From contig NZ_CP134696.1 in the NCBI RefSeq assembly GCF_031851795.1, positions 4,236,501-4,300,500 of the forward strand: a DNA stretch of 64,000 nt, in the 5' to 3' direction. Position numbers and translations under genes: made by a program. This DNA is from Pontibacter sp. G13 (GTDB lineage: Bacteria; Bacteroidota; Bacteroidia; J057). The notes beneath the pieces are model-generated. The model searched no databases and had not been told where the DNA came from. It worked only from the letters and a program-made list of their open reading frames with translations. This document shows positions 14,920-28,398 of the stretch, piece by piece. Position 1 is the stretch's first letter. Every line of letters begins with the position of its first letter.

Positions 14920-14970
14920 AAACGAGCATATCCCATGCATTTCATCGAAATGCATGGGATATGCTCGTTT
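14920..14970. repeat. Perfect inverted repeat, 24-bp arms with 3-nt loop
   Basis: Arms 14920-14943 and 14947-14970 are exact reverse complements around ATC. There is no run of T after either end, so it is not a classical terminator. It sits in the 744-bp gap between mltG and the kinase gene. No gene was found in that gap. Confidence 0.9.
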
Positions 14971-15138
14971 ATGACTGCTTTGTCCGTCATTTTTGGAATG
15001 AGTGATTTTTTATATATTACATTTGTTATTTCAAATCTGCGATCCATTCATGCGAGCATTTGAACCGTTCATGCGAAAAGGACAACCATTCGAAGGTCGA
15101 AACGATGTGGAACGCCTTCTGTGTGTTATACTTGTATT

Positions 15139-15218
15139 CGAAAGGGCGATAATCCTGGATTACAAGAGCAAGGGCTAGGGTTGATTCACGAATGCGTTTG
15201 AGTCCCCTAGTTTTTTTT
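15139..15218 (+). ncRNA. Structured leader/terminator RNA element, copy A
   Basis: A TATACTTG at 15127-15134 (one mismatch to TAnnTTTG) is followed by about 35 nt of leader, the conserved GAGCAAGGG, and a hairpin: CTAGGG, bulge TT, GATTC, inner stem ACG/CGT, bulge TT, GAGTC, CCCTAG. It ends in T8. From GGATTACAAG onward it closely matches copy B (15.4 kb) and more loosely copy C (27.3 kb). Copies A and B lie in tandem before the kinase gene. Confidence 0.7.
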
Positions 15219-15238
15219 GGGCCTTAGGGCCTTTCATG

Positions 15239-15271
15239 CAGTCGCGAGGGCAGAAATTGCTTTCGCGACTG
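15239..15271 (+). terminator. Second hairpin between leader copies A and B
   Basis: 9-bp stem CAGTCGCGA / TCGCGACTG with a 15-nt loop, followed by ATGTTTTTAT. It is a weak terminator candidate and could also be a protein site. Confidence 0.4.
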
Positions 15272-15360
15272 ATGTTTTTATTTGAACCAATCTAACACTC
15301 AGAACGTCCGCTGGCACGACATGACATGGCAGATGTAATAATTCATAGTATCATTGCTAT

Positions 15361-15444
15361 ACAACAGGACGGTAAACCTGGAATTACAAGAGCAAGGGCT
15401 AGGGTTGACTCACGCGCCGCGTTTGAGTCCCCTAGTTTTTTTTT
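15361..15444 (+). ncRNA. Structured leader/terminator RNA element, copy B
   Basis: Starts after TATCATTG (15349-15356, one mismatch to the -7 consensus). It carries GAGCAAGGG at 15390-15398 and the hairpin CTAGGG-TT-GACTC-ACGC-GCC-GCGT-TT-GAGTC-CCCTAG, then T9. The T-run ends exactly 49 nt before the kinase start codon. No other promoter was seen in those 49 nt, so it may act as an attenuator for the kinase gene (an inference). Confidence 0.75.
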
Positions 15445-15493
15445 GTGCTTATCTCGAAATATGGTAGTTTCAGAATCCTAATCTTTTAGTGGA

Positions 15494-17890
15494 ATGACAA
15501 AAAAGGGCTGGTTGTGGTATCTCGCGTTAGGAATGTTTTACCTCGGCCTGTGTGTACTTGGATATACCTATTACCTGCAGGTTCAGCACATTGCCAACTA
15601 CCGCGTAGATCCTGAGATCGATGGAGAATTCGAGGGAAATGACTGGGTCTCTTGGATCAATACCACCCAAGGCGTGATCGCCGATCAAGTGCATCCCTTG
15701 CCTGGATACAAACCTTCTTCACATCCCAAGATCCGAAAAGGGGATCGGGTGAAGGAGATTCAATATAATCCCATCACACAAGCTGAGGTTGCCGACCGAA
15801 TCACAGCTTCTTCCCGCCCGGGACAAGCCTTCCAGTGGAAATTCGAAACCACCGACCCCCTCTCCCAAACCAAGGACGAAAAACTCGGATTCATCATCAA
15901 TGGGTTTCGGATCCCATTCGGATTCAATCATTTTGCTGGTTATTGGCACCTCTCAGGTTGGATTGTTGGAATTGGTGCTTTCGTATCATTGGTGATGCTC
16001 ACCATCCTCCTGCCCATTGTGCGGGGGAATTGGAGAGACTTTCTCCCTCTCATGGGGATCGTCGGATCGGCTTTTGCCTTCTTTTTGTTACAGCTGTTCC
16101 ATCATATCTATTTGATCGTCGAAAGTGACCTTGAGCATGTTGGACCCGAGAAGATATTTATGCTGGGCTATGCAGGATTGCTATTCCTGTATGTGCTGTA
16201 TTATTTCTATTACAAATCCGGCGTAAAGAGTGTCCTATTCATGATTCCCTCCGTGAGCTTGGGAATTTTCTTCATGGTGCAATTCTTCCAGATCATTTTC
16301 ATCGATAAGCAATTGCGCTTCTTCCATGATATGGTGGAGATGTACACAGGACTCTTTTTCCTGGTCCATCTGCTCGGAGCTGTACTGTTGCATATTTCCA
16401 CCTACGAAGGCGGACGACCTGTGCAAGGATTGTTGGGACTGATAGCCATTGCAACCTGCTCGGCGGGAGGTATTTGGTTTTTGGCGGGGTATGGTGACTA
16501 CTCTGCAGGAGAGCGAGAGCATGTGATGTTCTTCTACAACCTGCTGGTATTCTTCCCGCTGTTCAACGCCACTTTCCTCCAACTCCAATTTGGTAAGGTC
16601 AGCTTGGTCGTCACTCAGACCATCCAGTATCTCGTGACATTTGTGGTGAGCATTATCCTGTTTCTGCTCATCTCGCAATTGTTCGATATGATTCGACCCA
16701 ATATCCAATACCGCCGATTCCTCGAATTCACGACCTTCCTCATCGCGCTGGGAATGATCAGGCTGATCTATCAGGCCAATGAGAATAGGTTCTCCAAATA
16801 TTTCGTGTCGTCTCAGCGGGAGCGGATGAGCAAGTTCAAAGGCTTTATTGCCCGCATTCCTCAATACACTTCTGCCGATTCGCTTCGGAAAGATTTGCTC
16901 TCCCAGATGCAGGATTTCTTCAATTCTGAAGAAGTGATTTTCTGGTGGAATGTAGATATGCCTTCGACACAGGAGGAGGAGCACTTTCATCAGCGTCAAG
17001 AGAGCATTTATCGGCAGCTTACCGATCATCATACAGTCTGGTCCAGAACCAAGGAGTTGTCGCCATTCAGGCTGACACATGGGCTTGAGAAGATGGTGCT
17101 CTCATCGCCTTATACCTTGATTTGTCCGGTAACCATCGATCAAGACAATTATGCCTTGCTCATGCTCTGCAAGAAGCGGCGAGGCGTGTATAACTTGACC
17201 GATTTGGAGTTGATCTCCCAATTGATCCAGCAGACGCAGCTCACCCTGAACGTCCTGCAATTGGTCGATCGCGAGAAGGAGTTGATTCAGCAGACCTACG
17301 AAGCCAACCTGACGGCGCTTCGTTCACAAATCAATCCGCACTTCCTCTTCAATACCCTGAACTCCATTGGCGAATTGGTCCATGAGTCAGCAGAATTGGC
17401 CGAGGAGGCTGTCGAGAAATTGGCGTTCATCTTCCGATATACCCTCAAGAAATCCAGCGAAAACTTCGTCGCCCTCGGGGATGAGATGAGCCTGATCACC
17501 ACTTACCTTGAATTAGAGAAGATCCGATTCGGAGAACGATTGGATACCCACATCGAGGTGGCTCCGGATGTGCGGGATATTTCTATTCCGGCCTTCATCC
17601 TCCAGACCTTGGTGGAAAATTGCATCAAGCATGGAATCGCCAAAATCCTGCACAAGGGCCTAGTTTCTGTGGTGGCTTTTCGGGAGGAAGGCTTCTTGGT
17701 GTGCGAAGTTGTGGACAATGGCCCGGGCATCGATCTTTCTCGGATATTCAAAAGTACTGGATTGAGCAACTCCATTGCTCGTCTGGAAAATATCTACGAG
17801 CGTAAGAATCTCCTGCATTTCGAAAACACTGGAGATGGGACGTATGTTAGACTTAAAATTCCGCTTGTAGAACACCCGCAGCTCAGTTAA
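15494..17890 (+). CDS. LytS-type membrane sensor histidine kinase with PDZ-like sensor part
   Basis: 798 residues. A first membrane segment (9-28) is followed by an outside domain whose core (KIRKGDRVKEIQYNPITQAE, then VADRITASSRPGQAF) looks like a PDZ domain. Seven or more membrane segments follow (about 155-425), then a GAF-like region (about 455-590). The kinase core has H616 in SQINPHFLFNTLN, the N-box LVENCIKHG and the G-box VDNGPGID. His_kinase/LytS proteins phosphorylate LytTR regulators, and one is encoded 173 bp downstream. The signal sensed is unknown. The gene is preceded at 49 nt by copy B of the leader element. Confidence 0.9.
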   Translation: MTKKGWLWYLALGMFYLGLCVLGYTYYLQVQHIANYRVDPEIDGEFEGNDWVSWINTTQGVIADQVHPLPGYKPSSHPKIRKGDRVKEIQYNPITQAEVADRITASSRPGQAFQWKFETTDPLSQTKDEKLGFIINGFRIPFGFNHFAGYWHLSGWIVGIGAFVSLVMLTILLPIVRGNWRDFLPLMGIVGSAFAFFLLQLFHHIYLIVESDLEHVGPEKIFMLGYAGLLFLYVLYYFYYKSGVKSVLFMIPSVSLGIFFMVQFFQIIFIDKQLRFFHDMVEMYTGLFFLVHLLGAVLLHISTYEGGRPVQGLLGLIAIATCSAGGIWFLAGYGDYSAGEREHVMFFYNLLVFFPLFNATFLQLQFGKVSLVVTQTIQYLVTFVVSIILFLLISQLFDMIRPNIQYRRFLEFTTFLIALGMIRLIYQANENRFSKYFVSSQRERMSKFKGFIARIPQYTSADSLRKDLLSQMQDFFNSEEVIFWWNVDMPSTQEEEHFHQRQESIYRQLTDHHTVWSRTKELSPFRLTHGLEKMVLSSPYTLICPVTIDQDNYALLMLCKKRRGVYNLTDLELISQLIQQTQLTLNVLQLVDREKELIQQTYEANLTALRSQINPHFLFNTLNSIGELVHESAELAEEAVEKLAFIFRYTLKKSSENFVALGDEMSLITTYLELEKIRFGERLDTHIEVAPDVRDISIPAFILQTLVENCIKHGIAKILHKGLVSVVAFREEGFLVCEVVDNGPGIDLSRIFKSTGLSNSIARLENIYERKNLLHFENTGDGTYVRLKIPLVEHPQLS

Positions 17891-18063: not shown

Positions 18064-18831
18064 ATGTCCAAACTACGCGTACTCATTGCCGATGACGAAT
18101 TGCCAGCACGCAACAAGATGAAGCGTCTGCTGAAAAAGCACGATAATGTTGAGCTGATCCACATGGCCGAAAATGGGTTCGATGCCCTCGAACACATCCA
18201 GTCTCTCAAGCCGGATCTCGTATTTCTTGATATCGAGATGCCAGGGATGAATGGGCTGGAAGTCGCCGAGAACATTGACCTCGAAGATATGCCTTCCGTG
18301 GTGTTTGCGACAGCTTACAGCGAGCACGCCATCAAAGCTTTCGAACTGAGCGCGATGGATTACCTCCTCAAGCCTTTCAACGAGGAGCGCCTAGGACAAG
18401 CCATCGAAAAGGTCATCGAGAATCGCTCCGATTCCGCTCTCGACAAAAACAAGATCGCCCAGATCCTCAAAAGCGAACTTGCAGAAGACATCAAAACGCC
18501 TTTTTCCAACAAGGTGCCTATCCCAACTCGCGACCGTTACAAATTGGTCGATTACTCCGAGGTCGTCTGCATCGAAGTGGAAGAGCGGAGCGTACGCCTT
18601 TTCACCAAAGAAAAAAGCTACCTTCTCAACCACACGCTTGATACTTTTGAGCGTAAGTTGCCGCAGGACCAATTCTTCCGCGTCAATCGCTCTTGCATCA
18701 TCGGACTCAAGCACGTCAAGGAGATCGTCATCTGGTTTGGTAACCGCTTCAAGATCATCCTGAGCAATGACAAGGAGGTGATCTCCAGCCGCGAGAAATC
18801 CAAAGTCCTCAAGCAGGTGCTGAAATTCTAG
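18064..18831 (+). CDS. LytTR-family response regulator
   Basis: 255 residues. The receiver domain has D10/D11, phospho-acceptor D56 in VFLDIEMPG, T/A switch residues in VVFATAYSEHA and the lysine in YLLKPF. A LytTR DNA-binding domain fills about residues 150-255 (VPIPTRDRYKLVDYSEVVCI, FFRVNRSCIIGLKHVKEI). It is the evident partner of the kinase upstream (173-bp gap). Targets cannot be read from the sequence. A strong terminator follows 23 bp after the stop. Confidence 0.95.
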   Translation: MSKLRVLIADDELPARNKMKRLLKKHDNVELIHMAENGFDALEHIQSLKPDLVFLDIEMPGMNGLEVAENIDLEDMPSVVFATAYSEHAIKAFELSAMDYLLKPFNEERLGQAIEKVIENRSDSALDKNKIAQILKSELAEDIKTPFSNKVPIPTRDRYKLVDYSEVVCIEVEERSVRLFTKEKSYLLNHTLDTFERKLPQDQFFRVNRSCIIGLKHVKEIVIWFGNRFKIILSNDKEVISSREKSKVLKQVLKF

Positions 18832-27328: not shown

Positions 27329-27401
27329 AAAAAAATTAGGGGACTCAAGTACCATGTACGAGTCAACCCTAACCCTTGCTCATTCTTTACTTTAACCTGT
27401 T
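27329..27401 (-). ncRNA. Structured leader/terminator RNA element, copy C
   Basis: Read on the minus strand: promoter TACATTTG, about 20 nt of leader, GAGCAAGGG (27373-27381), then TTAGGG-TT-GACTC-GTAC-ATG-GTAC-TT-GAGTC-CCCTAA and T7. Compared with copies A and B, the outer pair C-G is replaced by T-A and the inner stem ACGC/GCGT by GTAC/GTAC, so pairing is kept while sequence changes. The T-run ends 49 nt before the PIG-L gene, the same distance as copy B to the kinase gene. Confidence 0.75.
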
Positions 27402-27405
27402 GATA

Positions 27406-27413
27406 CAAATGTA
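27406..27413 (-). promoter_or_regulatory. Putative -7 element (TACATTTG) for leader copy C
   Basis: Full TAnnTTTG match on the minus strand. The predicted RNA to the end of the T-run is about 72 nt. Confidence 0.55.
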
Positions 27414-27621
27414 AATACGGATTTCGGTTTTTCTGGCGGATGGTGTGCGAACGGTCGGTTTGTAGGCTCAAATGGATGTTTCGAAATCCGTTATGTAATT
27501 CCTTCCCGATAAACCCACAAAATCGTCCATTCAGACATTCTGAAGCAGAGAATTTGTTTCATCCGCATGATGAAGACTCGCACTTCGCGTATATTGCTAC
27601 CGATAAAACCGCCCAAATCTC

Positions 27622-28398
27622 ATGGAGACAAAAGCTTCGAAAACCGATATTTCGTCAAAAGACATGCTCACTGCCCGCCTTGCAGCCAATAAGATGGCCA
27701 CACGGGATTTCGATGAGTGGTGTATTCGACAACTCCCCGAATTGCCCATGCCCGCCAAGGTGATGGACATCGGCTGTGGAACCGGCAAACAGCTCAATCT
27801 GTTTGGGCCGCTTCTGTCCCCCAAATCTACGTTGATGGGGATGGATCTATCCGAAGCCAGTATTCAGACCGCCAAGGATTCCTATCGCGGAGCTGCACAG
27901 CTTGCTGCCGAGGTGGGGAGTTTCGATGAGCTGGATAGCATGAATCTCCCAGATGGCGAATGGGACTTGATCTATGCTGTCTACGCGATGTACTACACCC
28001 AGGACCTTCCCAAGCTGATTCGTGAGGTCCATAGGCTACTCAAGCCGGGCGGTATCTGCTGGGTGATTGCTCCGTATTTTGGTACCAATGACGAATTCCT
28101 CCGAATTCTGAGGCCCTTGCACGAGGTTGAGGATTTCATGGATTATGTGTTTGATCGCTTTCATCAGGAGGTGATCGCAGAAGGCGAATCAGTGGGATTC
28201 TCGAGCTTGAAGACCTCTCATCTCCGCAATGAGGTCAGATTTCCGCATCCAGAGGCCTTCATGAAATATCTCCGGAATTCGCTCTTCTATCGAGCGGGGC
28301 ATGATGACGCGATCGCCCGTGAAGTTCAGGCGGTATGCGATGCCCAAGGATATTTTGGGGTGAGCAAGCGCATCATTTCGATTCAACTCAGAAAGTAG
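27622..28398 (+). CDS. SAM-dependent methyltransferase (class I)
   Basis: 258 residues. The SAM-binding motif is KVMDIGCGTGKQLNLFG (about 46-62), with motif II in GEWDLIYAVYAMYYT and EVHRLLKPGGICWVI as the post-motif. The C-terminal 90 residues are variable and probably bind the substrate, which is unknown. It resembles the UbiE/Methyltransf_11 group. Upstream lies a 342-bp gap that also holds leader copy C on the other strand. Confidence 0.87.
   Translation: METKASKTDISSKDMLTARLAANKMATRDFDEWCIRQLPELPMPAKVMDIGCGTGKQLNLFGPLLSPKSTLMGMDLSEASIQTAKDSYRGAAQLAAEVGSFDELDSMNLPDGEWDLIYAVYAMYYTQDLPKLIREVHRLLKPGGICWVIAPYFGTNDEFLRILRPLHEVEDFMDYVFDRFHQEVIAEGESVGFSSLKTSHLRNEVRFPHPEAFMKYLRNSLFYRAGHDDAIAREVQAVCDAQGYFGVSKRIISIQLRK

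Follow-up and report, generated by a model that had tools for sequence, protein, structure and literature searches.

Copies A, B and C in the LytS window

We analyzed a window of 64,000 nucleotides from Pontibacter sp. G13 (positions 4,236,501 to 4,300,500 of contig NZ_CP134696.1, or C1:4236501-4300500 of the genome that we call G000, which comprises 7.67 Mb in three contigs) for three short repeats that look like copies of a previously unlisted small regulatory RNA (sRNA) family that occurs for the most part in one group of uncultured Bacteroidia. Copies A (15139-15218) and B (15362-15444) lie on the plus strand upstream of a LytS-type sensor kinase gene (15494..17890, plus strand; Pfam His_kinase 9.9e-27), which is followed on its 3' side by a gene for a LytTR-domain response regulator (18064..18831, plus strand; LytTR 8.7e-25). 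Copy C (27402-27329, minus strand) lies upstream of a PIG-L gene. The three copies share the 22-mer GAGCAAGGGYTAGGGTTGAYTC; allowing up to three mismatches, it matches three times in the window, every time exactly, compared with a mean of 0.00 in 100 shuffles.

The copies belong to different subclasses, which we defined by sequence patterns (I, Ib, II, III, IV and other). Copy A (15139..15218, subclass Ib) has a 5' mini-hairpin, the linker ACAAGAGCAAGGG with GAGCAAGGG at 15166-15174, a predicted terminator hairpin at 15175-15210 and a run of eight T (covariance model E 2.5e-16). Copy B (15362..15444, subclass I) carries GAGCAAGGG at 15390-15398, the hairpin at 15399-15435 and nine T (E 2.3e-19), and copy C (27329..27402, subclass II), which is devoid of the 5' mini-hairpin, carries them at 27381-27373 and 27372-27336 with seven T (E 2.1e-13). 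The copies are preceded by the candidate -7-like promoter boxes TATACTTG (15127..15134, plus strand) for A and TATCATTG (15349..15356, plus strand) for B and by the -7 box TACATTTG (27406..27413, minus strand) for C, read against the consensus TAnnTTTG, which passages of PMC9723704 give as the sigma-A -7 box of a flavobacterium. Further upstream, copy A has three LytTR-like half-sites (CCATTCA at 15044, CCGTTCA at 15065 and CCATTCG at 15086; 15044..15092, plus strand) and copy C has a pair (CCATTTG and CCGTTCG; 27448..27475, minus strand), in both cases with a phasing of 21 bp.

The initial annotation had placed the three copies where we find them, with the kinase gene after B and the PIG-L gene after C, and these assignments hold. 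Equally correct is its statement that 49 nt separate the T-run from the ATG for both B and C, and neither stretch contains TAnnTTTG, in agreement with its claim that no other promoter is visible there. The 49-nt spacing is not preserved in relatives. What had been overlooked is the promoter-like box upstream of each copy, together with the LytTR-like sites of A and C.

An unlisted RNA family with a covarying hairpin

The exact pattern GAGCAAGGGYTAGGG occurs six times in the window's own genome: three of the sites are copies A, B and C, and the other three (D, E and F) form a tandem trio at C1:6194968-6195631. A covariance model built from these six copies (R1) recovered two further, weaker single copies (C1:3858166 and C1:3927555) and one tandem array, bringing the genome to eight single copies and one 40-unit array. 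A search of related genomes with such a model, proposed in the initial annotation, returned many more copies: at E <= 0.1, R1 has matches in 20 of the 60 relatives' genomes, and a second model restricted to the core (R2) is positive in 19 of the 22 genomes of the order, namely in 13 of 13 from the same family and in six of nine from other families. R2 is also positive in 19 of 395 genomes of a class sample (13 of the order, three of family f46 and three, weakly, of family f50) and in two of 395 of a phylum sample, one being the window's own genome and the other (G546) a match that we judged by eye to be due to chance. The E-values of these self-built models are rough, and samples of more than 40 genomes were searched with stricter filters at which weak matches are lost. 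By eye, phased LytTR-like sites are present in multiple numbers at the f46 copies; the matches in f50 keep GGGTTGATTC...TTGAGTCCCC with a TAnnTTTG-like box.

Scanning 84,980 named species genomes with the exact pattern gave 28 stretches, every one titled as Bacteroidia or as a Bacteroidetes metagenome-assembled genome. The same pattern has no exact match in viral contigs (0 matches in viral_contigs for this one pattern), on which ground we set aside a phage-borne element. Rfam 15 returned no match in the window at the gathering threshold, and at E values up to 10 none of its matches overlaps the RNA in the three loci L001, L003 and L005; a known Rfam family is thereby excluded, in line with the initial annotation, which had recognized no named family. 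Among the open PMC papers listed in queries by terms other than the RNA's own sequence, no title or abstract beginning describes it. The family is real and unlisted; its general kind, that of multicopy, regulator-controlled sRNAs, is known, and its tandem arrays are unusual. Between a YceG-like gene and copy A, the window also contains a perfect inverted repeat with arms of 24 bases (14920-14970), where weak sub-threshold Rfam matches to miRNA families fall.

Support for the fold comes from comparison between sequences, because the folding energies of A, B and C taken singly are modest (z of -0.86, -2.67 and -1.81). We used a MAFFT alignment, not fitted to structure, of 52 hairpin cores: 50 hand-picked from 69 distinct ones (one of the distinct cores being the L056 array unit) and two units of the G000 array; the omission of near-duplicates and of the odd cores of L058 and L059 may favor the structure. 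Nine of the 15 pairs vary on both sides (shuffle mean 6.8; nine is reached in 7 of 500 shuffles), 106 cells vary on both sides compared with 32.5 in shuffles, and 96.8% of hairpin cells are paired compared with 84.9%. The covariation score of 0.432 exceeds that of the shuffles (0.194) and that of slid partners (at most 0.160), over which the proposed pairing has an advantage, as the structure was derived from the scored sequences themselves. The compensatory changes reported in the initial annotation are borne out by these values. Extra pair types give a weaker signal (27 compared with 24.3, reached by 29 of 500 shuffles), and RNAalifold, unaided, returns the same helix together with weak G-U pairs to the T-run.

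Next to a two-base UU bulge, the GGG/CCC and GAYUC/GAGUC pairs hardly change between sequences. Variation is free in the outermost pairs and in the upper stem, and the linker sequence is very conserved across copies. For the 5' hairpin, three of four pairs vary on both sides in 14 hand-picked sequences from the 40 copies of subclasses I, Ib and IV; subclass II, to which copy C belongs, has no such hairpin, and subclass III has, by eye, a different one.

Promoter signals, gene context and LytTR-like sites

Gene context and promoter signals were scored on 79 copies listed with their flanks (78 single copies and L056, the first unit of an array in G008; the contig-end copy L064:1-60 was excluded). 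At least the following R1 matches lie outside these counts: C28, C581, C747 and C586 of G001, C30 and C507 of G009, C395 and C118 of G005, and C51 and C83 of G059. All background rates for promoter, LytTR-site and phased-score counts were drawn from the same loci, real sites included. Of the 79 copies, 24 have a strict TAnnTTTG near the RNA start, compared with a background of 0.7%; when the box is relaxed, the number is 48 of 79 (background 5.4%). For A to F, a TAnnTTTG-like box is visible by eye directly 5' of the RNA. Among the 78 copies with at least 59 upstream bases, nine have in place of the -7 box a strict sigma54-type TGGYN7TTGC (background 0.22%), located exactly 23 bp from the model start in eight and 26 bp in one (loci L065, L093, L095-L098, L100, L062 and L048). 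Seven of the nine come from G001 and are not independent of each other, with one each from G010 and G002. A sigma54 domain was found in all 22 genomes of the order. Since either a sigma54-type or a TAnnTTTG-like box occupies the same position, two unlike promoter types would serve the same RNA start.

The initial annotation had favored a cis-acting element, an attenuator or riboswitch-like leader that acts on the gene after it. In favor of this reading, copy B ends 49 nt from the kinase ATG with no TAnnTTTG in the gap, and we found in addition that an RNA copy or array precedes a homologue of the window kinase in 11 genomes (G000, G001, G002, G003, G004, G006, G007, G008, G009, G010 and G021), the homologues in G008 (31.6% identity over 361 aa) and G021 (38% and 24% over two pieces) being diverged; such an operon could be fed by terminator readthrough. 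Against a leader speaks the orientation of the neighbors. Using mechanically called open reading frames (ORFs) of at least 100 aa, setting aside those that overlap a copy (seven copies), counting tandem copies singly and scoring D to F as same-strand on account of an ORF that lies within a tandem repeat, we found the downstream ORF on the same strand for 38 of 74 copies and on the opposite strand for 36, that is, not the consistent same-strand gene expected of a leader or riboswitch. Furthermore, the distance from RNA to kinase varies from ~33 to ~600 nt, PIG-L was not matched near copies in the other loci searched (tblastn, E 1e-4), and unlike promoter types precede one RNA start. On the strand split, the variable kinase distance and the lack of a PIG-L match in the other loci searched, we reject an attenuator or riboswitch as the general function, and we consider the leader hypothesis very improbable.

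The initial annotation had also named a second possibility, that of a small RNA family in which each RNA brings its own terminator, and this reading is to be preferred: most copies, though not all, appear to have their own promoter and their own terminator whatever the orientation of the neighboring gene. From these signals we are highly confident that the copies represent stand-alone sRNAs. For the lytS locus, terminator readthrough into the kinase operon may add a secondary function in cis.

Many intergenic copies, tandem arrays and a palindrome with a conserved foot could also describe a repetitive palindromic, REP-like DNA element or a spread terminator devoid of regulatory function. Mobile elements of this kind are associated with RAYT/HUH transposases, and by eye no transposase is present among the neighbors that recur in at least three genomes, in a survey that included no search aimed at RAYT/HUH. 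The promoter signals sit at near-fixed distances, the hairpin covaries, an exact match in viral contigs is absent, and paralogues recur next to the same genes in several genera. Together these observations render a REP-like element highly improbable.

We then considered the regulator. According to passages of PMC4847170, a LytTR site comprises a pair of repeats, each 9-11 nt long and separated by 11-13 nt; the AlgR core site is given as CCGTTCGTC in part of PMC4064291, and HdrR, a LytTR regulator of Streptococcus mutans, is described in part of PMC6193735 as an activator of the operon to which it belongs, acting at two direct repeats of 9 bp. We examined 77 upstream regions of 150 bp, each with at least 142 upstream bases and a distinct last 60. 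The element CCRTTCR is present in 39 of them, whereas it occurs in 4.3% of random stretches and 300 shuffles gave on average 3.0 and at most 8 such regions. It is strongly oriented, with 58 sites on the RNA strand and one on the opposite strand. A 21-bp phasing is common among these sites, as in known LytTR sites, and exact 21-bp pairs occur in 13 of the 77 regions and in none of 300 shuffled sets. By subclass, CCRTTCR is found upstream of 7/7 copies of Ib, 11/12 of II, 7/27 of I, 2/10 of III, 3/6 of IV and 10/17 of the others. Candidate response-regulator sites are thus located upstream of copies, as would be expected of paralogous sRNAs under two-component control. We judge it likely that the copies bearing such sites are under LytTR control, and the response regulator at 18064..18831 is the probable activator of many copies. 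In the window's own genome, intergenic 21-bp CCRTTCR tandems are also found away from the RNA at C1:2648282 (L173), 4923436 (L188) and 5290154 (L190); such sites possibly mark further LytTR-regulated genes.

Tandem arrays and a putative shared partner

Six genomes carry fixed-period arrays of the RNA module: 40 units of 56 bp in G000 (C1:6190687-6192930, equal to L021:688-2931, minus strand, near the trio D-F), 18 of 52 bp in G004, seven of 56 bp in G006, four of 52 bp in G005, three of 53 bp in G003 and at least three of 58 bp, split over contigs, in G008. Units displayed inside an array resemble each other. By eye, the last unit in G004, G006, G005 and G003 has a longer T-run than the inner units or an additional hairpin after it, and the array leaders of G000, G004 and G003 have TATTTGACAT in common. 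Upstream of every one of the six arrays, the phased LytTR-like score ranks within the top 0.6-1.6% of background, with no correction for the number of windows per array. Long open frames cover parts of the G000 array; we considered that it might consist of coding repeats, against which its 56-bp period speaks. A gene for a dynamin-like GTPase directly follows the array on the same strand in G004 (L072:3820-5544), G006 (L078:7820-9532) and G005 (L088:2019-3746); these genes share 61-62% identity, and Pfam Dynamin_N was found on the one in G004. No dynamin-like gene was matched by tblastn in the 14.7 kb beyond the G000 array. On the same locus, downstream of copy F, lies a different tandem repeat of about four copies of 160 bp (L021:5805-6499).

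Our best reading, which we hold to be probable on balance, is that the copies are stand-alone, multicopy and partly LytTR-controlled trans-acting sRNAs whose module may titrate a shared protein. A, B and C would be genes for trans-acting RNAs of about 75-85 nt; the LytTR response regulator would activate many of these genes as well as the locus that encodes it, and the remaining copies would respond to other inputs. With less certainty, the module, composed of single-stranded AGAGCAAGGG and a stem with the nearly invariant GGG-UU-GAYUC/GAGUC-CCC, may form the site at which one common partner binds. This partner would most likely be an RNA-binding protein, titrated by the RNAs and above all by the arrays. 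The invariance of the pairs beside the UU bulge, set against the variability of the outermost and uppermost pairs, fits recognition by a protein. Together with these pairs, the conservation of the single-stranded foot and the fact that arrays repeat the module in full point to a titrated protein binding site, as in the Csr system. That an array holds between 3 and 40 units likewise suggests that an RNA-binding protein is titrated.

Alternatively, stand-alone sRNAs could base-pair with mRNAs through the linker ACAAGAGCAAGGG or the variable 5' part. The size, the 5' hairpin, the single-stranded linker, the terminator and the multicopy arrangement all resemble csRNAs and FopS as described in parts of PMC3091779 and PMC11697453, respectively, and the linker is very conserved. 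A scan of three genomes for exact matches to the 11-nt antisense CCCTTGCTCTT gave 25 sites. Eleven of them fall on the RNA genes; the remaining 14 stand against 11 matches of a reversed control pattern. In a rough comparison with ORFs, no start codon coincides with any of the 14, and we set these exact 11-nt targets aside; the nearest are ~20 codons into a frame (L200) and 66 nt before an ATG, though within another frame (L222). Moreover, a pairing seed has no need of near-invariant paired bases beside a UU bulge, and the arrays repeat the stem along with the linker. Base pairing through these parts is in our view less likely than our best reading yet a serious alternative, and on the narrower choice of protein titration rather than base pairing our judgment is evenly divided.

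Several observations weigh against multicopy, LytTR-controlled RNAs that titrate a protein. Strict LytTR-like sites are absent from 38 of the 77 upstream regions, including those of B, D, E and F. A relaxed phased-pair score is not passed by any of these 38 either, so that other inputs must exist; the upstream regions of orthologous and tandem copies are, in addition, not independent. Ten of 78 copies have neither a -7-like box nor a sigma54-type promoter nor a LytTR-like site, and promoters and terminators alike are predicted from the sequence. In five genomes, only four of 25 exact 21-bp CCRTTCR pairs precede an RNA copy (2/7 in G000, 1/11 in G004, 1/3 in G006, 0/1 in G002 and 0/3 in G010); the seven in the window's own genome comprise two upstream of copy A, three in other intergenic regions and two inside ORFs. 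A reversed-pattern control gave seven pairs in the five genomes and none in the window's own genome, and the counts barely exceed it or do not exceed it in G002 (1 v 1), G006 (3 v 2) and G010 (3 v 3). The last unit of the G000 array has no stronger terminator, and the terminator-like hairpins with short T-runs of internal array units could prevent a long transcript. CsrA was not found, and the titrated protein would hence be an unknown one. RRM_1 proteins, present in 18 of 22 genomes, are loosely associated with the RNA (17/19 RNA-positive and 1/3 RNA-negative genomes).

CsrB and RsmZ contain repeated motifs within one RNA, an arrangement to which the arrays can be compared. Two-component control and sequestration of an RNA-binding protein belong to the CsrB/RsmZ scheme as described in the literature. 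The present family differs in that none of the 22 genomes of its order gave a CsrA match, with the E. coli, B. subtilis and T. maritima controls positive, and in that its motif is AGAGCAAGGG and a bulged stem instead of the GGA motifs described there. We therefore exclude the Csr system itself. A Csr-like form of post-transcriptional control that lacks a detectable CsrA, in which LytS/LytTR would induce sRNAs and giant tandem-unit RNAs of up to 40 modules that titrate an unknown protein recognizing AGAGCAAGGG and the UU-bulged stem, is a tentative proposal.

Qrr RNAs of Vibrio use Hfq. No genome of the order has an Hfq match over the cut-off (0/22; one sub-threshold match in G014, 23.2 bits compared with 27), and we excluded a classical Hfq-dependent sRNA on this basis. 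The Qrr RNAs are comparable in kind: in the passages of PMC8043402 they number five paralogues, and a response regulator activates them together with sigma54. In the present family, only 9 of 78 copies have sigma54-type promoters, seven of them in one genome.

CiaR, the regulator of the csRNAs of Streptococcus, is not a LytTR protein, and both the phylum and the regulator family of the csRNAs are unrelated to those described here. As portrayed in passages of PMC3091779, the csRNAs of CiaRH are several paralogous short intergenic RNAs, many with two stem-loops as here, that end in a terminator and whose response regulator acts on them by way of a direct repeat. The CiaR repeat is TTTAAG-N5-TTTAAG, unlike the enriched CCRTTCR at 21-bp phasing. 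According to the same passages, csRNAs carry stretches able to pair with translation start regions, for which we found no exact 11-mer site, and these passages mention no tandem arrays, which are present here.

RbpB is an RRM protein. FopS and GibS of Bacteroides are likewise from Bacteroidota, and passages of PMC11697453 describe the sRNA family as 14 paralogues with sigma-ABfr promoters that are bound by RbpB. We liken FopS to the present family by description, not by sequence. Its regulator is unknown in these passages, whereas LytTR-like and sigma54-type signals are found here, and they make no mention of tandem arrays.

To our knowledge, little is known of small-RNA networks in Bacteroidota outside Bacteroides. 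The present family brings together a two-component system with sigma54-type promoters and arrays of the module, and its copies have neighbors that are conserved across genera; by these searches, the order has no CsrA and no Hfq over the cut-off. The family offers a clear test of what a LytTR system controls in these bacteria, and the repeated unit provides a direct handle to fish for a new RNA-binding protein.

Two further observations concern the neighbors of individual copies. The ten subclass III copies, with the core AGAAGCTAGGGG (L032, L033, L071, L073, L076, L077, L079, L081, L084 and L087), have scpA as a neighbor in some cases and an outer-membrane-type gene together with a sigma-factor-like gene in others. 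In the window, copy C has as its conserved divergent neighbor a methyltransferase-like gene (27622..28398, plus strand), named by eye and not from a family search, which is also found in G001, G006 and G009.

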